64,000 bases of DNA from Comamonas sp. lk (GTDB taxonomy: Bacteria; Pseudomonadota; Gammaproteobacteria; Burkholderiales; Burkholderiaceae_C): assembly GCF_900564145.1 (NCBI RefSeq), contig NZ_UOOB01000001.1, positions 2,420,754 through 2,484,753 of the forward strand. The letters are read 5' to 3'. Numbering within the stretch: the stretch's first letter is position 1; every line of letters begins with the position of its first letter. The notes under the pieces are model-generated. The model worked only from the letters and a program-made list of their open reading frames with translations. It did no database searches and was not told the DNA's origin. Below are positions 5,290-52,518 of this stretch, one piece after another. The position numbers and the translations under genes are program-made.

Positions 5290-5772
5290 ATGGATAAATT
5301 GTTGCTGCAGCAGCAAGTGCTGGAACGGCTCGCCGAGGACCTACTGCAAGCCGAACAGGCAGTGCGGGTGGCGCACGAAACGGCGACTCACGAAGAAAAT
5401 ATCGCCGAAAACAAATATGACACATTAGGTCTAGAAGCGGCCTACCTGGCCAGTGGTCAAGCTCGTCGCGCCGAAGCCATTCGCCAGGCGATGGTCAATT
5501 GGCGCCAGTTCCGCCCGCTCCCCTACAGCGTCAGCAAAGGTATACAGATCGGCGCGCTGGTCTGCCTGGTGGGTTCCGACGACAGGCAGCAACAGATCTT
5601 TCTCGGCCCTGATGGGGGCAGCATGAAGTTGGTCTGCGGCGCTGAGCTCGTTCAGGTCATCAGCAGCCAAACCCCCTTGGGCAGGGCCATGCTGGGTAAG
5701 TGCGAGGGTGATGAAGTATCGATTCAGGTTGCTTCAATCCGACAGCAGTTTGAGGTGTTGTGGGTTCAGTAA
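5290..5772 (+). CDS. GreA/GreB-family C-terminal domain protein
   Basis: 160 aa from the ATG at 5290. An N-terminal helical part contains the conserved-looking segment ENIAENKYDTLGLEAAYL. A C-terminal domain follows (IGALVCLVGSDDRQQQIFLGPDGG, then LGRAMLGKCEGDEV), resembling the FKBP-like domain of GreA/GreB with its TPLGRAMLGK signature. It is close to the stand-alone Gre-like proteins of proteobacteria, which are sometimes mis-named 3-oxoacyl-ACP synthase. Such proteins act at the RNA polymerase secondary channel; whether this one cleaves backtracked RNA is unknown. In-frame sequence upstream of the ATG looks non-coding. Confidence 0.75.
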   Translation: MDKLLLQQQVLERLAEDLLQAEQAVRVAHETATHEENIAENKYDTLGLEAAYLASGQARRAEAIRQAMVNWRQFRPLPYSVSKGIQIGALVCLVGSDDRQQQIFLGPDGGSMKLVCGAELVQVISSQTPLGRAMLGKCEGDEVSIQVASIRQQFEVLWVQ

Positions 5773-43832: not shown

Positions 43833-44531
43833 TCAGCTGTTCTTGGCCTGGCGAACCAGCGAAGGTGTAGCTTGGTAGACCTCGGGGAATGACCGCTTGA
43901 GATCTTCGATCTTGGGCAGGTCATTGATGACGATATAGGGCTGGTTCGGGTGCAGCGTCAGGTAGTCCTGGTGGTAATCCTCGGCCGCATAAAAAGGTTT
44001 GGACATTTCGATCGTCGTGGCCAGCGGCTTGCCATAGGTTTTGGCCTGGTTGAGCTGGGCTATGTATTCCTTGGCAATGCGCGCCTGCTCGGGATTTTGC
44101 GCAAATACGGTGGAGCGGTATTGCGTGCCACGGTCAGGGCCCTGGCGGTTCAGCTCGGTGGGGTCGTGCGCCACCGAGAAATAGATTTGCAGCAGCTTGC
44201 CGTAGCTGATGAGTTGGGGGTCGTAAGTGATGCGCACCGCTTCGGCATGGCCGGTGCGGCCCGAGCCCACGTCGTCATAGCGCGCCGATTTGGCCTCACC
44301 GCCCGAATAGCCGGAGACCGCATTGCTCACGCCTTTGACGTGCTGGAACACGCCTTGAACGCCCCAAAAGCAGCCGCCGGCAAAGACGGCGTTGTCGCTC
44401 CCTGCCGTTGTGGCGGCGATATCGCTGATGGGAGCCGGTATCCGGCGCGGTGTTTGCGCCAGTGAGGGTGCGGCTTGCAAGAGCAGTGCCGCAGCAGCCA
44501 GGCTGCAGGCTGCGAGAGTGCGGGATTTCAT
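43833..44531 (-). CDS. msrA: Periplasmic peptide-methionine (S)-S-oxide reductase MsrA
   Basis: 232 aa from the ATG at 44531 (AAAAGGAG upstream). Signal peptide at about residues 1-25 (ends SLA), so this MsrA acts outside the cytoplasm. The catalytic motif is FAGGCFWGVQ; later segments YSGGEAKSARYDDVGSG, GHAEAVRITYDP and DRGTQYRS are all family-typical. The C-terminal resolving cysteines of cytosolic MsrA are absent, so it may depend on another thiol donor. It follows the methionine-rich repeat protein gene by about 135 nt on the same strand, suggesting that it repairs this protein. Confidence 0.94.
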   Translation of the reverse strand: MKSRTLAACSLAAAALLLQAAPSLAQTPRRIPAPISDIAATTAGSDNAVFAGGCFWGVQGVFQHVKGVSNAVSGYSGGEAKSARYDDVGSGRTGHAEAVRITYDPQLISYGKLLQIYFSVAHDPTELNRQGPDRGTQYRSTVFAQNPEQARIAKEYIAQLNQAKTYGKPLATTIEMSKPFYAAEDYHQDYLTLHPNQPYIVINDLPKIEDLKRSFPEVYQATPSLVRQAKNS

Positions 44532-44666
44532 GAAAACTCCTTTTGCAGGTGGCTGTTGCGGGCGGCGCAAGTTGACACCAGGCAGAACCAGGCAGAGCTG
44601 AACGTCAACCTGGGCGCTCAACCCGCTGCAGTTCAATAGGCGGGTAGAGCGATTCCGGTTCAGCGC

Positions 44667-44963
44667 TTATTTGGACATGGAGTCCTTGCCCATGGCATCT
44701 TTCTTCATGCCGTCCTTGGACATGGAGTCCTTGCCCATGGCGTCTTTCTTCATGCCGTCCTTGGACATGGAGTCTTTGGCCATATGGTCTTTCTTCATGC
44801 CGTCCTTGGACATGGAGTCTTTGCCCATATGGTCTTTTTTCATGCCGTCCTTGGACATGCTGTCCTTAGCCATGTTGTCCTTGGACATATCGCTCATGGC
44901 AAAAGCGGAGGCTCCAGCAAAGGCAAGGCAGGTGGCGAGTACGGTAGTGGTGAGCTTGTTCAT
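44667..44963 (-). CDS. Secreted methionine-rich MxKDx repeat protein
   Basis: 98 aa from the ATG at 44963. Signal peptide at residues 1-22 (ends AFA). The 76-residue mature chain is made almost wholly of pentapeptides of the form M-x-K-D-x, with 16 methionines and no Cys, Tyr or Trp. It matches the pentapeptide MxKDx repeat family. Methionine every fifth residue in a Lys/Asp background suits a soluble oxidant-scavenging peptide, like MrpX of Azospira, whose oxidised Met is restored by a molybdoenzyme. Its neighbours are msrA on one side and the YedY-like oxidoreductase on the other. Confidence 0.85.
   Translation of the reverse strand: MNKLTTTVLATCLAFAGASAFAMSDMSKDNMAKDSMSKDGMKKDHMGKDSMSKDGMKKDHMAKDSMSKDGMKKDAMGKDSMSKDGMKKDAMGKDSMSK
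44676..44855. repeat. Four tandem 45-bp repeats in the MxKDx gene
   Basis: Units at 44676-44720, 44721-44765, 44766-44810 and 44811-44855, each coding three pentapeptides; they differ at a few positions only. A partial fifth unit follows. Repeat number may vary between strains. Confidence 0.9.
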
Positions 44964-45057
44964 TTGGATGCTTTCAGTTGCGTTGTCATTGTCAAAAGAT
45001 AGGTCCGGTTCTTGGGAACACGGCCTCGCGCTTTCTTTGGCGGCCGAGGGGGCTCCC

Positions 45058-45849
45058 TCAGCTGCCTCCGAACCAGTTGTAGCCCTGGTCTTCCCAGTAG
45101 CCACCGGAATAGGTGTTGGTCACGAACATGGCCTGAATGTGCTTGGGGTTCTTGTAGCCAAGCTTGGTCGGCATGCGCAGCTTCATGGGGAAGCCGTATT
45201 TGGGCGGTAGCGGCTGGCCGTCATAGCTCAGCGTCAAAAGCGTCTGCGGGTGCAGCGCGGTAGGCATGTCAATGCTGGTGTAGTAGTCGTCGGCGCACTT
45301 GAAACCCACGTACTTGGCCGTGGTGTCGGCACCGATATGGCGCAGAAAATCAGAGAAGCGCACGCCACCCCATTTGCCTATGGCACTCCAGCCTTCAACG
45401 CAGATATGGCGCGTGATCTGGTCCTCCTGTGCCATGGCTCGCAGCTCGGCCAGCGTCCAGGCATGCTTGTCTGCGACCAGGCCCGTCACTTCCAGCCGGT
45501 AGCTGGCCTCGTCCACCAAGCGTACTTCGTCTTCGCTGTAGTAGGCATTGAAAGGAAAGGGGCGCGTGATCTCGGCATCGGTGTAGGTGGGCGCCAGCTG
45601 CGTGGGGCTGAAGATCAGGGCTTGCACCTTGTCGTTGAAGCGCGAGATCTTGCCCAGTGCGGCTTCCACGTGGGCGTCATCGCTGATGCTGCAACCGGTG
45701 AGCAGTGACAGGCCGCCCAGCGTGAATGAACGCTGCAAAAAAGCGCGGCGGGCAGGCTGGTCCAGCTTGCTGGCAATCTGCGCACGGGCTTCGCGCACTG
45801 CGGCATCGGCATCTACGCCGCTCAAGGTAGGGGCTTTGAATATTTTCAT
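45058..45849 (-). CDS. Molybdopterin-dependent oxidoreductase, YedY-like
   Basis: 263 aa from the ATG at 45849, which overlaps the cytochrome b stop (ATGA). It has a Tat-like signal RRAFLQRSFTLGG followed by LLTGC, near residues 34-52. The sulfite-oxidase-fold domain shows the Mo-ligand cysteine in ITRHICVEGWSAIGKW. It is shorter than SoxC and lacks the dimerisation domain, as in MsrP/YedY proteins. In the YedY1-YedZ1 or MsrPQ pairs such enzymes reduce methionine sulfoxide in the periplasm. Here it pairs with a cytochrome b and lies next to a Met-rich protein and MsrA. A sulfite-oxidase-like activity cannot be excluded. Confidence 0.88.
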   Translation of the reverse strand: MKIFKAPTLSGVDADAAVREARAQIASKLDQPARRAFLQRSFTLGGLSLLTGCSISDDAHVEAALGKISRFNDKVQALIFSPTQLAPTYTDAEITRPFPFNAYYSEDEVRLVDEASYRLEVTGLVADKHAWTLAELRAMAQEDQITRHICVEGWSAIGKWGGVRFSDFLRHIGADTTAKYVGFKCADDYYTSIDMPTALHPQTLLTLSYDGQPLPPKYGFPMKLRMPTKLGYKNPKHIQAMFVTNTYSGGYWEDQGYNWFGGS

Positions 45850-46496
45850 AGTGTTTTGGGTGCGCGGCCGCTGATCATGGTGAGCAGGGTGCGGGGCACC
45901 AGGGCCACCATCACCAGATGCACTGCAACAAAGGCCACCATGGCCGTCATGCCCACGAAGTGAATGCGCCGTGCAAATTCGTAACCACCCAGCAGTTGGC
46001 GCAGCAGGGGAAATTGCACCGATTTCCACAGCACCAGGCCGGACAGCACGATCACGATCAGATCCAGGATCACGAACAGATAGGCCAGCTTTTGCACGTG
46101 GTTGTACTGGCGCGGGTTGGCGTGCGAGAGCCTGCCCTGAAGTGCCTCGATCAGGTCGTGCGCCACGCCCTTGATACTGAGGGGCAGGAATTTGCGCTGC
46201 AATCTGCCGCTGAAAATATTGAGCGCCAGATACAGCAAGCCGTTGAACACCAGCAGCCACATGGCGGCGAAGTGCCACTGAAGCGCGCCGCCAAGCCAGC
46301 CGCCCAGGGTGATGGCCGGCGGGATGGTGAAAGGGAAAAAAGGCGAAGCATCGTAAATGCGCCAGCCACTCATGGCGAGGATCACCACGGCCAGGGCGTT
46401 GAGCCAGTGCGTGAGCCGCATCCACAGCGGATGAATGGGCCGAACATCAGCCGTGTCGGCGAGAGGGGCGATGATGGTGCTGTTCATGTAGGCCAT
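45846..46496 (-). CDS. Cytochrome b561-type membrane subunit (YedZ1-like)
   Basis: 216 aa from the ATG at 46496; ATG at 46487 and a GTG at 46508 are alternatives. Four main membrane segments with helix histidines (LTHWLNALAV, LQWHFAAMWL, RRIHFVGMTAMVAFVAVHL) that can bind two hemes, as in Ni/Fe-hydrogenase-type cytochromes b and formate dehydrogenase gamma. It likely passes quinol electrons to the molybdoenzyme encoded directly downstream. It is not an MsrQ/YedZ (ferric-reductase-like) protein but resembles the cytochrome b partner of YedY1. Confidence 0.87.
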   Translation of the reverse strand: MAYMNSTIIAPLADTADVRPIHPLWMRLTHWLNALAVVILAMSGWRIYDASPFFPFTIPPAITLGGWLGGALQWHFAAMWLLVFNGLLYLALNIFSGRLQRKFLPLSIKGVAHDLIEALQGRLSHANPRQYNHVQKLAYLFVILDLIVIVLSGLVLWKSVQFPLLRQLLGGYEFARRIHFVGMTAMVAFVAVHLVMVALVPRTLLTMISGRAPKTL

Positions 46497-46585
46497 TGTT
46501 GGGCGCACCCCATGGCCGATGTATCACGCAAAGTTCAATTAATTGTGATAACTCCCCAGCGCGTATCGCGAGAAAATGCCTAGCT

Positions 46586-47311
46586 ATGGAATCAACCAAG
46601 CGCGTACTGATCGTCGAGGACGACCTCCACATTGCGGAGCTTTTGCGTTTGCATCTGCGCGATGAGGGATATGCCGTCGAGCATGCGGCCGACGGCCATG
46701 CGGGCCTGCGTGAACTGGAACGCAGCAACTGGGATGCACTGGTGCTGGACCTGATGCTTCCGGGCATTGACGGCCTGGAAATCTGCCGCCGGGCCCGGGC
46801 CATGGCACGCTACACACCCATCATCATCATCAGCGCCCGCTCCAGCGAGGTGCACCGCATTCTCGGGCTGGAGCTGGGTGCGGACGACTACCTGGCCAAG
46901 CCTTTTTCGGTGCTGGAACTGGTGGCCCGCGTCAAGGCGCTGCTGCGACGCAACGACGCGCTGGCCCGTAATGCACGCATGGAGTCGGGCAGCCTCTCGA
47001 TTGCCGAAATCGACATTGAACCCCTGGCCCGGGAGGTACGGGTCAGCGGCAAGCTCATTGAGCTCACACCGCGCGAGTTCGATTTGCTGTATTTTTTTGC
47101 GCGCAGCCCCGGCAAAGTGTTTTCACGCCTGGACCTGCTCAACCAGGTCTGGGGTTATCACCATGATGGATATGAGCACACCGTCAACACCCATATCAAC
47201 CGGCTGCGCCTGAAGATAGAAGCCGATCCGGCGCAGCCGCGCCGGATTCTCACGGTTTGGGGGCATGGGTACAAGCTGTCTGCCTCTGCCGGCGAGGAGG
47301 GCGCCTCATGA
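46586..47311 (+). CDS. OmpR-family response regulator
   Basis: 241 aa from the ATG at 46586. Receiver domain with acidic pair D12/D13, phospho-acceptor D55 (VLDLMLPGIDG) and K105-region (YLAKPFSVLEL); C-terminal OmpR/PhoB winged helix (LTPREFDLLYFFARSPGKVFSR, GYEHTVNTHINRLRLKIE). Divergent from the cytochrome b/molybdoenzyme genes with only 89 bp between starts; overlaps the histidine kinase gene. Probably controls that operon, as HprR controls msrPQ in E. coli. Confidence 0.93.
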   Translation: MESTKRVLIVEDDLHIAELLRLHLRDEGYAVEHAADGHAGLRELERSNWDALVLDLMLPGIDGLEICRRARAMARYTPIIIISARSSEVHRILGLELGADDYLAKPFSVLELVARVKALLRRNDALARNARMESGSLSIAEIDIEPLAREVRVSGKLIELTPREFDLLYFFARSPGKVFSRLDLLNQVWGYHHDGYEHTVNTHINRLRLKIEADPAQPRRILTVWGHGYKLSASAGEEGAS

Positions 47312-48795
47312 TGGCCTGGGCCTCCTTGTCAAGACGGCTGTCGGCCGTGTTTGCAGCCTTGCTGCTGGTGTGCTGCGGCGCCTCGGTCTGGCTGCAGGTG
47401 CGCTCCAATGGCAAGCATGAGCAGGAGGTGATTCAGCGCCTGTCCAGTGGACTGGCAGCCCATATTGCAGGGAATGCGGAACTGATGAAGCCCGGCGGCC
47501 TGAATCAGGAGGCCGTGAAGGATTTGTTTGGCAAGCTGATGTCCGTCAATCCCAGTGTGGAGGTCTATCTGCTGGGGTTGGACGGACGCATCGAGGCCCA
47601 GGCCGCACCGCCAGGGCATTTGAAGCGCGACAAAGTCGATCTCAAGCCGGTTCGTGACCTGCTCGCCGGCGCAGCGCTGCCCATTGTGGGCGACGACCCG
47701 CGCAGCCTGGATGCGCGCAAGGTGTTCAGCGCCGCCCCGCTGCGCATGGGCGGGCGTGATGCAGGCTATGTCTATGTGGTGCTTCAGGGCGAGGACCATG
47801 ATGCGCTGGTCGCCAACACAGCGGCCGACAACGTGCTGCGAACCACGCTGTGGCTGACGGGCCTGGGCGCTCTGCTGGGCCTGCTAGCGGGGTTGGCCGC
47901 ATTTCGCCTCATCACCCGGCCGCTGCGCGAGCTGACGGCGGTGGTCAAGCGTTTCGAAACCGAAGGCATTGCGGCGCTGGAAAACGAAGCCCCCAGGCTG
48001 GAGCGTCTGTCGCAAGGGCACGACGAGATTGCGCAACTGGGCCAGGCCTTCATGCAAATGAAGCAGCGCATTGCCGAGCAGTGGCGCGAGCTGACGTTGC
48101 AAGACCAGCAGCGCCGGGAACTGTTTGCCAATATCTCTCACGATTTGCGCACACCGCTGACCTCGTTGCATGGCTATCTGGAGACCTTGATGCTCAAGGC
48201 TGCCACGCTTGACGAGACCGAACGGCGGCGTTACCTGGAAATTGCACTGGGCCAGAGCCGCAAGGTCGGGCGCCTGGCCCAGGAGGTGTTCGAGTTGGCA
48301 AGACTGGAGTACGGCGTGGTCAAGCCCGAGAGGGAAAATTTTGCCTTGGCCGACCTGGTGCAGGACGTGTTCCAGAAATTCGAACTGGCGGCAGAAGCCC
48401 GTCAGCAAAGGCTCAGGCCCGATATTGCGCCCAATCTTCCCGTGGTGTCTGCCGACTTGGGCATGATTGAGCGTGTTCTGACGAATCTGCTGGATAACGC
48501 TATTCGCCATACGCCCACGGGTGGTGAAATCGTGGTGCAGCTGAGTTCCCAGAACTCTGGCGTGGCGGTGCAGGTGAGCGATACCGGCGCCGGCATACCG
48601 GCCGAGCTCCAGCAGTCCTTGTTCATACGCCCGGCCTTTATGAGCGGCGCAAGCTCAGAGCGATCCGGCAGCGGCGGCCTGGGTCTGGTGATCGTCAAGC
48701 GTATTTTGCAATTGCACGGCAGCGATATTCAGCTGGTGCGCTTGCCGGACAAGGGCGCGGTATTTCGCTTTCAACTCACCGGGGCAGGGTACTGA
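47308..48795 (+). CDS. Sensor histidine kinase
   Basis: 495 aa from the ATG at 47308, overlapping the regulator stop (ATGA), with GAGGAGG upstream. Two membrane helices (about 10-30 and 175-200) enclose a periplasmic sensor of about 145 residues. Then HAMP, HisKA (phospho-His in ANISHDLRTPLTSLHG) and HATPase (NLLDNAIRHTPTGG, DTGAGIP, GSGGLGLVIVKRI). The signal is unknown; oxidative damage in the periplasm is suggested by the genes it faces. Confidence 0.93.
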   Translation: MMAWASLSRRLSAVFAALLLVCCGASVWLQVRSNGKHEQEVIQRLSSGLAAHIAGNAELMKPGGLNQEAVKDLFGKLMSVNPSVEVYLLGLDGRIEAQAAPPGHLKRDKVDLKPVRDLLAGAALPIVGDDPRSLDARKVFSAAPLRMGGRDAGYVYVVLQGEDHDALVANTAADNVLRTTLWLTGLGALLGLLAGLAAFRLITRPLRELTAVVKRFETEGIAALENEAPRLERLSQGHDEIAQLGQAFMQMKQRIAEQWRELTLQDQQRRELFANISHDLRTPLTSLHGYLETLMLKAATLDETERRRYLEIALGQSRKVGRLAQEVFELARLEYGVVKPERENFALADLVQDVFQKFELAAEARQQRLRPDIAPNLPVVSADLGMIERVLTNLLDNAIRHTPTGGEIVVQLSSQNSGVAVQVSDTGAGIPAELQQSLFIRPAFMSGASSERSGSGGLGLVIVKRILQLHGSDIQLVRLPDKGAVFRFQLTGAGY

Positions 48796-49051: not shown

Positions 49052-49213
49052 ATGACGAATCCTCAGCCCCAGTCGACGCGCTCGGAAGAGTTGCGTAGTT
49101 TTGTCTTTATGACGGTGGTGATGGCCCCAGTGCTCTCTGGTGTGCTGATTGCCAGCTTTGGCTTTCTGGTCTGGATCTATCAGATGCTGATCGGCGGGCC
49201 TCCGCACGCATGA
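49052..49213 (+). CDS. napE: NapE, small membrane protein of periplasmic nitrate reductase operon
   Basis: 53 aa, a short gene easily missed. Polar start (TNPQPQSTRSEELRSF), one membrane helix (VVMAPVLSGVLIASFGFLVW) and a WIYQMLIGGPP end, typical of NapE. Its function is unknown. The stop overlaps the ATG of napD (ATGA). First gene of napEDABC. Confidence 0.88.
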   Translation: MTNPQPQSTRSEELRSFVFMTVVMAPVLSGVLIASFGFLVWIYQMLIGGPPHA

Positions 49214-49509
49214 GGGCATTACGCATGCCCGATACGAACGATGAGTTGCATATCACCAGTCTAGTGGTGCATGTAATTCCCCAGGCATTGGCGCAGGTGG
49301 CCCACGGGCTGGCCGCCATCGACGGTGCCCAGGTGCATGGAAGCCACCCCAGCGGCAAGCTGGTGGTGACGCTGGAAGCACCCCACGCAAGGGAAATTCT
49401 GGATCGTGTGTCTCAAATCGAGCAACTCCAGGGGGTGATCAACGCCTCACTCGTCTACCAGCATGCGGAAAGCTGGCAATCACTCAATCAAGGGGTAGAA
49501 CATGACTAG
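49210..49509 (+). CDS. napD: NapD, maturation chaperone of NapA
   Basis: 99 aa; a start at 49225 ([15 protein letters not shown]) is also possible. NapD-type ferredoxin fold: [17 protein letters not shown], then GKLVVTLEA and the C-terminal [11 protein letters not shown]. It binds the Tat signal peptide of NapA in the cytoplasm until the molybdenum and iron-sulfur cofactors are in place. Overlaps napA by 8 nt. Confidence 0.92.
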
Positions 49510-51994
49510 CACCAGGCGCGACTTTGTCCGTCAATCCGCTGCTGCCGCTGCAGGCGCTGTGGCCGGCATTCCCATTGAAGTTCTGTCGCAAGGCAGCGTT
49601 GCGGCCGCAGATGTCGGACTGAAATGGTCCAAAGCTCCTTGCCGCTTTTGCGGTACCGGCTGTGGCGTCATGGTCGCCGTCAAGGAAAACCGCGTGGTGG
49701 CGACCCAGGGCGACCCGGAAGCAGAGGTCAACCGAGGACTCAACTGCGTCAAGGGCTATTTCCTGTCCAAGATCATGTATGGCGGCGATCGTCTGACCCA
49801 GCCGCTGCTGCGCATGAAAAATGGCCGCTATGCCAAGGATGGAGAGTTCCAGCCGGTGTCCTGGGATACGGCATTCGATGTCATGGCCGAGCAGTTCAAG
49901 AAAACAATCAAGGCCAAAGGTGCCGATGCCGTGGGCATGTTCGGCTCCGGTCAATGGACGGTCTGGGAGGGCTATGCGGCCTCCAAGCTGTTCAAGGCGG
50001 GCTTTCGCACCAACAATATCGACCCCAATGCCCGCCACTGTATGGCCTCGGCGGTCGCCGGCTTCATGCGCACTTTCGGCATGGATGAGCCCATGGGCTG
50101 TTACGACGACATCGAAGCCGCAACCGCTTTTGTGTTGTGGGGCTCCAACATGGCCGAGATGCACCCGGTGCTCTGGACGCGGGTGACGGACCGTCGCCTT
50201 TCCACGCCGGGCGTGAAAGTGGCCGTGCTGTCCACCTTCGAGCACCGTTCCTACGAACTGGCGGATCTGGAGCTGACCTTCAAGCCCCAGACCGATCTGG
50301 CGATTCTCAATTACATCGCCAACCACATCATTGCCACGGGACGAGTCAACAAGGAGTTCGTCTCCAAGCATTGCAACTTCAAGCTGGGCAACACTGACAT
50401 AGGTTACGGCCTGCGCCCCGAGCATCCGCTGCAAAAAGCCGCCAAGAATGCGAATGATCCCGGCGGTGCCAAGCCCATGAGCTTTGAGGAGTACGCCAAG
50501 TTCGTCTCCACCTATACCCTGGACTACACGGCCAAGCTCACAGGCGTTGCGGCCAACCGGCTCAAGGCCCTGGCAGAGCTGTATGCCGACCCCAACAGCA
50601 AGGTGGTGTCGTTCTGGACCATGGGCTTCAATCAGCACACACGTGGTGTCTGGGCCAACAATCTGGTCTACAACATCCATCTGTTGCTGGGCAAGATTGC
50701 CACACCGGGCAACAGCCCGTTTTCGCTGACGGGCCAGCCCTCGGCCTGCGGCACGGCACGCGAAGTGGGAACCTTCTCCCACCGTCTGCCGGCAGACATG
50801 GTGGTGACCAATCCCGAGCACCGCAAGACGGCGGAAACCATCTGGAAGCTGCCCGAAGGCACGATCCCGCCCAAGCCCGGCTACCATGCGGTCGAGCAAA
50901 ACCGCATGCTCAAGGACGGCAAGCTCAATGCCTACTGGGTCATGGTCAACAACAATATCCAGGCCGGTGCCAATCTGGCACAGGAGGGCTATCCAGGCTA
51001 TCGCAATCCCGAAAATTTTGTGGTGGTCTCCGATGTCTACCCGACGGTCACCGCCGTGGCGGCCGACCTGATCCTGCCTACGGCCATGTGGGTGGAAAAA
51101 GAGGGCGCTTATGGCAATGCCGAGCGTCGCACGCACTTCTGGCATCAATTGGTGAAAGCACCTGGCGAATGCCGCTCCGACCTGTGGCAGCTGATGGAAT
51201 TTGCCAAGCGTTTCAAGGTCGAGGAAGTCTGGCCCGAGGAACTGCTGGCCAAGAAGCCCCAGTTGCGTGGCAAGACCTTGTTCGATGTGCTGTATCGCAA
51301 CGGTCAGGTGGACAAGTTTGCTCTGGCCGAAATGGACCCGGCCTATGAGAACGATGAGGCCAAGCAGTTCGGCTTTTATGTGCAAAAAGGCCTGTTCGAG
51401 GAATACGCCACCTTCGGTCGCGGCCACGGCCACGATCTGGCACCGTTCGACGAATATCACAAGGTGCGTGGTTTGCGCTGGCCGGTGGTCAACGGCAAGG
51501 AGACCCGCTGGCGCTACCGTGAAGGCACGGATCCGTATGTGAAGCCGGGCACTGAGTACCAGTTCTACGGCAACCCTGACGGCAAGGCCAACATCTTTGC
51601 TCTACCCTACGAGCCAGCCGCGGAAGCACCTGACAAGGACTATCCGTTCTGGCTCTCCACGGGCCGGGTGCTTGAGCATTGGCACTCGGGCTCCATGACC
51701 CGGCGCGTACCCGAGCTGCACCGTGCCGTACCCAATGCGCTGTGCTATATGCATCCCGACGATGCCAAGGCCATGGGCTTGCGCCGGGGCAGTCAGGTGG
51801 AAGTGGCTTCACGGCGTGGCTCCATGCGTACCCGTGTCGAAACCCGGGGCCGCAACAAGCCGCCGCGTGGCCTGGTCTATGTACCTTGGTTCGATGCCAG
51901 TCAGCTGATCAACAAGGTGACACTGGATGCAACCGATCCGATCTCGCTGCAGACGGACTTCAAGAAGTGTGCCGTGAAGATCACCAAGGTGTGA
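49502..51994 (+). CDS. napA: NapA, catalytic subunit of periplasmic nitrate reductase
   Basis: 830 aa, the normal length. Tat signal TRRDFVRQ at residues 4-11. The [4Fe-4S] ligands are C47, C50, C54 (CRFCGTGCG) and C82 (GLNCVKG). The Mo-ligand cysteine is C180 in NARHCMASA. It reduces nitrate to nitrite with electrons from NapB. A complete, uninterrupted gene; a conserved C-terminal MopB domain ends in [10 protein letters not shown]. Confidence 0.97.
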
Positions 51995-52011
51995 CGAAAG
52001 GAGTGTGGGTC

Positions 52012-52518
52012 ATGAATTTCATCCGTCATTTCGTTCGTGCTTTGGTCGTGCCCCTGATGCTGTGCACGGGCATGGCCTGGGGTCCATCTGCTGTTGCCGA
52101 GACGTTCTACGATGCGGCGCGCGGAACCACGCCCATCATGCAAGCCACCAAGCCGCCGGTGCTGGGCAATGCCATCAATGACGATGTGCGTCGCACGCGC
52201 AACTACACCTGGCAGCCGCCCACGATTCCGCATCGTGTGGACGGCTATCAGGTGGACAAGAATTTCAATAAGTGCATGGATTGCCACTCACGTACCAAGG
52301 CCGAGATTTCCCAGGCCATACCGGTATCGGTGACGCACTATATGGATCGTGATGGCCGCATGCTGGGCCAGGTGTCCACGCGGCGCTATTTCTGTCAGCA
52401 GTGCCATGTGGCCCAGGATGCCGTGCGCCCCCTGGTCAGCAATACCTTCGAGGATGTGGACACCGTGATCCTCAAGGCCATGCAGGCCCAGTCGGGCAAG
52501 GCATCCAAGAAAAACTGA
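52012..52518 (+). CDS. napB: NapB, diheme cytochrome c subunit of nitrate reductase
   Basis: 168 aa. Signal peptide ends VAE-T near residue 29. Two CxxCH sites: CMDCH and CQQCH. The segment PPTIPHRVDGYQVDKNFNKC and the later TRRYFCQQCHVAQ are typical NapB. It passes electrons from NapC to NapA in the periplasm. AAAGGAG precedes it. Confidence 0.95.
   Translation: MNFIRHFVRALVVPLMLCTGMAWGPSAVAETFYDAARGTTPIMQATKPPVLGNAINDDVRRTRNYTWQPPTIPHRVDGYQVDKNFNKCMDCHSRTKAEISQAIPVSVTHYMDRDGRMLGQVSTRRYFCQQCHVAQDAVRPLVSNTFEDVDTVILKAMQAQSGKASKKN

Follow-up and report, generated by a model that had tools for sequence, protein, structure and literature searches.

Which task is shared by a methionine-rich peptide, a peptide-methionine sulfoxide reductase, a molybdoenzyme and a membrane cytochrome, whose genes lie together on one strand and diverge from a two-component system? 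The question is raised by positions 43,833 to 48,795 of a 64,000-nucleotide stretch of contig NZ_UOOB01000001.1 from Comamonas sp. lk, hereafter called the window. We hold with good confidence that the locus serves as a sink and repair unit for methionine oxidation in the periplasm, and that it is governed by a two-component system of the OrhKR type dedicated to it. Together with sites elsewhere in the genome it is read as a dedicated periplasmic methionine-repair regulon, in which the kinase would sense oxidants and the enzymes would act on methionine sulfoxide. The features of the locus are as follows.

43833-44531, minus strand: msrA, exported-looking peptide-methionine (S)-S-oxide reductase (TIGR00401, PF01625; signal peptide by eye)
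44667-44963, minus strand: metX/mrpX-like pentapeptide MxKDx repeat protein, exported-looking (TIGR02953)
45058-45849, minus strand: YedY/MsrP-like molybdoenzyme with twin-arginine motif RRAFL and lipobox LLTGC (Cys53) (PF00174)
45846-46508 (GTG start), or from ATG at 46496 or 46487, minus strand: cytochrome b561-type membrane subunit (PF01292)
46524-46548: putative operator TCACG-N15-TGTGA between the divergent cytochrome and regulator genes, matching the OrhR inverted repeat of PMC8550376
46522-46550: inverted repeat TATCAC-N17-GTGATA enclosing the putative operator
46586-47311, plus strand: OmpR-family response regulator, OrhR ortholog (PF00072 and PF00486)
47308 or 47311 to 48795, plus strand: OrhK-like sensor histidine kinase with a periplasmic sensor domain (HAMP, HisKA, HATPase_c)

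Gene content

The six genes named in the original prediction, which was made from the sequence alone, were all found, as supported by family models and coordinates. The MxKDx protein (98 aa) scored 93.1 bits against TIGR02953 (cut-off 41). No second TIGR02953 gene was found in the genome, as its two overlapping matches fell on the same gene. A script counted 16 Met in its mature part of 76 residues (cleavage site placed by eye), in agreement with the predicted numbers. MsrA reached 177.5 bits against TIGR00401 (cut-off 108.1), with an N-terminus that was judged by eye to be signal-like, and its gene is separated from the MxKDx gene by 135 bp. The closest match to the molybdoenzyme (98%) is found in a Comamonas metagenome-assembled genome. 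With 46496 as the cytochrome start, the divergent gap has the predicted 89 bp.

An OrhR ortholog and its putative operator

The regulator is 59% identical to E. coli OrhR (E 4.5e-95), compared to 40% for the runner-up in the same genome (E 1.9e-45), and the kinase is 43% identical to OrhK. In uropathogenic Escherichia coli (UPEC), c3566-c3568 encode a cytochrome, a molybdoenzyme and a Met-rich peptide. Their expression drops by about 5 to 7 log2 units when either orhK or orhR is deleted; OrhR binds their promoter, and the sequence TCACA-N15-TGTGA, situated upstream of the -35 box, is its potential binding region (PMC8550376). The predicted sink and repair under a dedicated two-component system is thus upheld as far as the OrhR orthology and the activation in UPEC are concerned, while orthology to HprR was rejected: the regulator has only 36% identity to it and scored 154.7 bits against NF008567 (cut-off 353). 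No NrsF match was obtained in the Comamonas sp. lk genome.

The window box agrees with the OrhR repeat in 9 of 10 bases at equal spacing. With up to two mismatches allowed, the 29-bp pattern has one match in the window where 0.61 are expected, so that the match alone proves little and the weight comes from conservation. This was assessed in 80 loci, the best of a larger number returned by a molybdoenzyme scan in which each species was represented by one genome. The loci were typed by script, except that L053 was moved by hand from the class with neither regulator to the two-component class, since the script had taken the second of two tandem copies and it is the first that has the two-component genes. 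Divergent two-component genes were found upstream in 36 loci, SigF and/or NrsF in 14 and neither within the locus in 24; the upstream side was cut in the remaining six. A box with an AT-rich core precedes the cytochrome gene in 35 of the 36 two-component loci, in none of the 14 SigF/NrsF loci, in 11 of the 24 with neither and in two of the six cut ones. L066 is the sole two-component locus without the box, and its site has one half-site mismatch. The SigF-type promoter pattern GTAAC-N14-19-CGAA, modelled on a Brucella table, shows the opposite distribution, as it occurs in 9/14 SigF loci and in 0/36 two-component loci.

It is the pattern with the AT-rich core that is informative. The half-sites alone, i.e. 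TCAC-N17-GTGA, are not, as they occur at 43 places in the Comamonas sp. lk genome (G000) and at 31 in the reversed control. One of these 43 places is G000:C1:2004169 (L122). A scan of the region for sigma-70-like promoters gave none (1.6 expected).

Putative operator sites outside the operon

The 11 boxed loci with neither regulator belong to ten Pseudomonas and one Bordetella, and in all 11 genomes the regulator is encoded elsewhere. When L076, a Pseudomonas locus with no box, is added, one regulator ortholog was found in each of 12 genomes (75-78% identity, E limit 1e-75), compared to none in ten comparison genomes (nine SigF-type and that of L072). In 12/12 cases the unlinked regulator and kinase genes are divergent from a gene for an MsrB homolog, and the intervening gap contains TCAC-N17-GTGA with 0 to 2 core mismatches. 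Ten of the 12 MsrB alignments include the first residue of the query, an exported-looking protein. Searching whole genomes, we found the box in 47 out of 59, with zero hits in the reversed control; the 12 genomes lacking it are the ten without the regulator plus those of L076 (G211) and L066 (G254). Most box-positive genomes have one site, with letters identical to those of the operon box, and sites elsewhere are located in the regulator-msrB gap (G200, G202, G210), at msrB (G239) and at a duplicated operon (G246).

A strict box pattern, derived from the Comamonas sp. lk genome and the 80 loci, was applied to 200 genomes of the family, of which at least three (G014, G070, G131) are also represented among the 80 loci, whereas none of the box-positive ones is. 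Eight sites were found in seven genomes (reversed control 0). The regulator ortholog (at least 67% identity; next best 59%) is present in eight of the 200, namely the seven boxed genomes and G158, and this co-occurrence has a Fisher p of 3.5e-12, with kinship ignored. Six of the eight sites adjoin an MxKDx operon. The second site of the Comamonas sp. lk genome, G000:C1:2548583-2548607, is situated directly before an unlinked gene for an exported-looking MsrB of the twin-arginine translocation (Tat) type. The repair set of molybdoenzyme and MsrA that had been predicted from the window is therefore incomplete, as this MsrB behind the same operator was missed. In G043 the strict site precedes an MsrB-MsrA pair; the regulator gene of this genome (80% complete) adjoins the cytochrome and molybdoenzyme genes, at a site one outer base off, and no MxKDx match was found there. 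In G158 a TCAC-N17-GTGA site, with a single mismatch in its core, and the two-component genes are placed before the genes for a small protein, MsrP (50% identity to E. coli MsrP) and MsrQ (37%; 146.9 bits against NF003831, cut-off 130). The small protein, encoded between the two-component genes and MsrP (L205, about 5350-5690, minus strand), is exported-looking, contains Cys and is presumably DUF2282-like.

One result weighs against the inclusion of msrB in the regulon: unlinked MsrB homologs in five out of five Variovorax genomes (62-67% identity) are without a box. The three homologs closest to the Comamonas sp. lk MsrB (84-100%) do have it, one with a core mismatch. This upstream survey covers part of the MsrB matches, with L228-L232 left out. 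Another MsrA is also encoded in the Comamonas sp. lk genome (L123).

Gene order and control in related loci

The original prediction had suggested a genome search for the MxKDx-YedY-cytochrome b neighborhood, and the 80 loci show how far it is kept. The cytochrome gene is 5' of the molybdoenzyme gene in 77/80 loci, the remaining three being cut upstream, and the MxKDx gene is 3' of it in 75/80, as called with a script score limit; of the five exceptions, at least L044 carries a Met-rich gene in this position that scored below that limit. As the family cut-off is passed by the window's protein, as 14 of the 200 family genomes encode a protein above it, and as the gene follows the molybdoenzyme this consistently, the MxKDx assignment is not a matter of chance. 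An msrA gene is found downstream on the same strand in 22/36 two-component loci, or 22/31 of those whose downstream side exceeds 1 kb, and msrB is found downstream in 10/36.

The SigF-type relatives also carry a homolog of the PF01292-type cytochrome. In the molybdoenzyme tree (midpoint-rooted, with a very long E. coli row) all 14 SigF loci share a single supported group of 25 rows (100/97) with 11 rows to which no regulator was assigned. NrsF and the extracytoplasmic function (ECF) sigma factor were verified by Pfam on one member each. Out of the 14 MxKDx-positive family genomes, six have the regulator ortholog, two others (G014, G125) have NrsF within 3 kb on the same contig, and six have neither, which implies that a third kind of control exists. 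G122 has both the regulator ortholog and NrsF, the latter at a distance of 140 kb. Within the genus the system is patchy, given that G128, the one further member of the genus listed in the family sample, gave neither an MxKDx match nor a box nor a regulator ortholog.

Some loci show other configurations. A third class of loci with cytochrome, molybdoenzyme and MxKDx genes is made up of L060, L067, L070, L077, L078, L079, L085, L092 and L099, where neither the box nor SigF/NrsF was present in the fetched stretch, and in L070, L078 and L092 msrA is divergent upstream. L053 (Bordetella genomosp. 2) has a tandem double block of cytochrome, molybdoenzyme, MxKDx, msrB and msrA genes, possibly an assembly effect. 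In the window, napD, napA and a napB-like gene (the last by eye) are located at 49210-52518 on the same strand as the kinase gene, about 415 bp after it; NapA adjoins the locus in the window only and in none of the 80 related loci. Nap can reduce chlorate and could be a local source of chlorite.

Molybdoenzyme, cytochrome and MsrA

Compared with MsrP, the molybdoenzyme shows 28% identity across 157 residues. Its scores were below the cut-offs of all three models considered, i.e. 74.6 bits for MsrP (NF003767, cut-off 207), 47.5 for SorA (600) and 39 for SoxC (420). The best sequence match in PDB is MsrP (1xdq, 58.6 bits), compared to 44 bits for plant sulfite oxidase. Foldseek, with a structural model of mean pLDDT 76, also ranked MsrP first; by Z the model is as close to sulfite dehydrogenase as to MsrP, so the fold alone does not decide between the two. 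Cys150, in RHICVEGWS, is invariant in 41 rows. A twin-arginine plus lipobox pattern is present in 81 of 82 rows, the window and E. coli included, and the single miss has a start called too early. The residue after the lipobox Cys is Ser in the window and Asp in the E. coli copy. According to the Lol rule, Asp in this position retains a lipoprotein in the inner membrane, and the E. coli molybdoenzyme would accordingly stay there, near the cytochrome.

The Comamonas sp. lk genome also encodes an MsrP proper (G000:C1:924406-924873, L108; 486.2 bits against the cut-off of 207), and the lipoprotein molybdoenzyme is hence an additional system. Separate SoxC and SorT proteins are encoded as well, and a SoxC-type sulfite dehydrogenase is found in the window itself at 124-1485 on the minus strand (599.1 bits, cut-off 420). 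Two known identities were considered and rejected for the molybdoenzyme and its partner. Membership of MsrPQ was discarded, as the score falls short of the MsrP cut-off and the cytochrome has no MsrQ similarity; identity as a sulfite dehydrogenase was discarded on the grounds of the SoxC and SorA scores, the nearest sequence being MsrP and the presence of the genome's own SoxC and SorT.

The "cytochrome b" of the original prediction can be specified as a b561/Ni-hydrogenase type (PF01292), and it is not MsrQ-like: similarity to MsrQ was undetectable by BLASTP (E 0.24), and no MsrQ model matched at E 0.001. The UPEC homolog is given as 23.1% to MsrQ (PMC8550376). Six His are kept in 78 or 79 of 79 rows. 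MsrA has a lone Cys outside the signal region in 38/40 rows, with the catalytic Cys in GCFWG, and an external thiol would therefore be needed. A DsbD/TlpA-like protein is encoded nearby in four loci (L038, L048, L051, L099), as typed with Pfam on one of them.

The sensor kinase

In the kinase, Met77 is conserved in 49/49 sequences and Met59 in 45/49, while Cys21, in the first membrane stretch as placed by eye, is found in 40 of the 43 kinases having that stretch. HprS detects hypochlorous acid through two periplasmic Met, and a Cys in the membrane is important for its signaling (review PMC10151825). This is a parallel and not evidence that the present kinase works by an equal mechanism. A homology of the sensor domains was tried and rejected, as hhalign aligned the kinase core only, and the likeness by eye between Met72/73 of HprS and Met77 is not claimed. 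Against a special significance of Met77 stands the fact that many other residues of the sensor domain are equally invariant.

Alternative explanations

Might sulfite or a small sulfoxide be the substrate of the molybdoenzyme and its cytochrome instead, with the Met-rich protein as a bystander? The shared SUOX fold, the tie with sulfite dehydrogenase in the fold comparison and a score under the MsrP family cut-off would allow this. The sequence is nevertheless nearest to MsrP, both by the PDB match and by the order of the model scores, and at 263 aa the molybdoenzyme is shorter than sulfite oxidases. The genome has SoxC and SorT for sulfite, and the regulator is found beside an MsrB homolog in 12/12 unlinked cases and beside MsrP-MsrQ in G158. 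We consider this explanation very unlikely. The MxKDx protein might alternatively bind copper or silver, with the two-component system as a metal sensor of the Cus/Cop type, since Met-rich proteins can bind Cu(I). Kinase and regulator do match heavy-metal models weakly, although both scores are below cut-off (158.2 of 292.55 and 172 of 279.2 bits, respectively), and E. coli MsrPQ is also copper-induced, via CusSR (PMC9302797). Yet the E. coli OrhKR system responds to H2O2 (PMC8550376), and the boxes off the operon are located at msrB or in the regulator-msrB gap. Metal sensing is in our view highly improbable, though a metal gene may lie near some of the 80 loci, whose surroundings were annotated in part.

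As for the extent of the operon, it might stop at the MxKDx gene and leave msrA as a separate neighbor outside the regulon. The 135-bp gap speaks for such a boundary, as does the fact that msrA was not found in 14/36 two-component loci, five of which have less than 1 kb downstream. Its same-strand position in 22 of the 31 loci with more than 1 kb, however, argues for co-transcription, and so, weakly, do the terminator scan, in which no terminator-like site was listed in the gap, and the lack of a sigma-70-like promoter in the region. A boundary before msrA thus appears rather unlikely, and msrA is probably transcribed together with the rest.

Proposed mechanism and its implications

In the proposed sink-and-repair unit, a periplasmic oxidant, be it HOCl, chlorite or H2O2, would activate the kinase, and the regulator would then bind TCAC-N17-GTGA between the divergent genes and activate the cytochrome b, molybdoenzyme, MxKDx and msrA genes; the operator was identified in silico, and binding and activation are known from the E. 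coli ortholog. The MxKDx peptide would be oxidized at its 16 Met, by analogy with MrpX. The Tat-type lipoprotein molybdoenzyme, which may receive its electrons from the b561-type cytochrome, would reduce Met sulfoxide on MxKDx and on other envelope proteins. MsrA, if exported as it appears to be, would reduce the S form, and the putatively exported MsrB, encoded elsewhere with the same operator, the R form. In one group of relatives, SigF/NrsF would replace the two-component system before the same operon.

Taking all these data together, we lean slightly towards a wider reading, in which beta- and gammaproteobacteria share conserved OrhKR-type systems as dedicated sensors of methionine oxidation in the periplasm. 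A single operator would control the lipoprotein molybdoenzyme with its b561 cytochrome, exported MsrA, exported MsrB and the sacrificial Met-rich protein, and the system would be swappable with SigF/NrsF at the same promoter. The kinase may sense via an invariant periplasmic Met, and the molybdoenzyme would form a distinct Tat-lipoprotein family that is fed by a b561 cytochrome and not by MsrQ. A system known from one E. coli pathotype then appears as a remote offshoot of a far broader regulon found in environmental bacteria, for which a precise operator predicts the targets. Thiol-based (MsrA/MsrB) and molybdenum-based repair would be tied to one sensor, and two unrelated regulators would occupy the same promoter position.

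Comparison with known systems

The closest described system is OrhK/OrhR with c3566-c3568 of UPEC, which responds to H2O2 and protects from peroxide (PMC8550376). It resembles the window in its orthologous regulator, gene order, divergence, repeat spacing, Met-rich peptide and related cytochrome and molybdoenzyme, with identities over the aligned parts of 57% for the molybdoenzyme, 59% for the regulator, 43% for the kinase and 44% for the MxKDx protein. In contrast to the window, the UPEC operon is without msrA and is cotranscribed with a downstream toxin operon, and the accessible portion of the paper does not mention msrB among the targets (PMC8550376). A copy in strain ATCC 25922 has the UPEC gene order, with the cytochrome gene (L105 1096-1694) annotated as frameshifted and the other genes unflagged. 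Overall, 350 out of 5426 E. coli genomes contain DNA that resembles a portion of the cytochrome-molybdoenzyme pair.

Other systems combine similar parts under other kinds of control. Two perchlorate islands reported in 2015 hold exported MsrA and MsrB with mrpX-yedYZ-sigF/nrsF; these are under SigF/NrsF, and no two-component operator is described in what could be accessed of the paper (PMC4623255). The MrpX system of Azospira, in which MrpX scavenges hypochlorite, shares the sacrificial Met-rich peptide, the YedY-like reductase and a membrane partner, but MrpX/YedY1/YedZ1 are under SigF/NrsF instead of a two-component system (Melnyk 2015, via citing papers). Brucella bcrXQP likewise comprises an MXKDX protein, a YedY-like reductase and a membrane partner, and differs in being under BcrS/AbcS (PMC8315932). 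E. coli HprRS-MsrPQ offers the same principle of two-component control of molybdenum-based periplasmic repair; the window differs from it in the regulator (36% identity), in the molybdoenzyme (28% identity across 157 aa, with the motif of a lipoprotein) and in a cytochrome that is not MsrQ-like. Haemophilus influenzae MsrAB has exported MsrA/B activity and its own stress regulator, but the two activities are fused and the regulator is the ECF sigma factor RpoE2 (PMC7907618).

The original claim that the combination was undescribed thus stands in part. Its core is present in UPEC (PMC8550376) and exported MsrA/B with mrpX-yedYZ in the perchlorate islands (PMC4623255), so that the parts and most pairings are already known. 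In the open-access literature, to which the search was confined (subscription papers were outside its scope), we found neither a description of the operator in organisms other than E. coli nor one that combines this two-component system with an exported MsrB. What the present locus adds to the known systems is the operator and its regulon.

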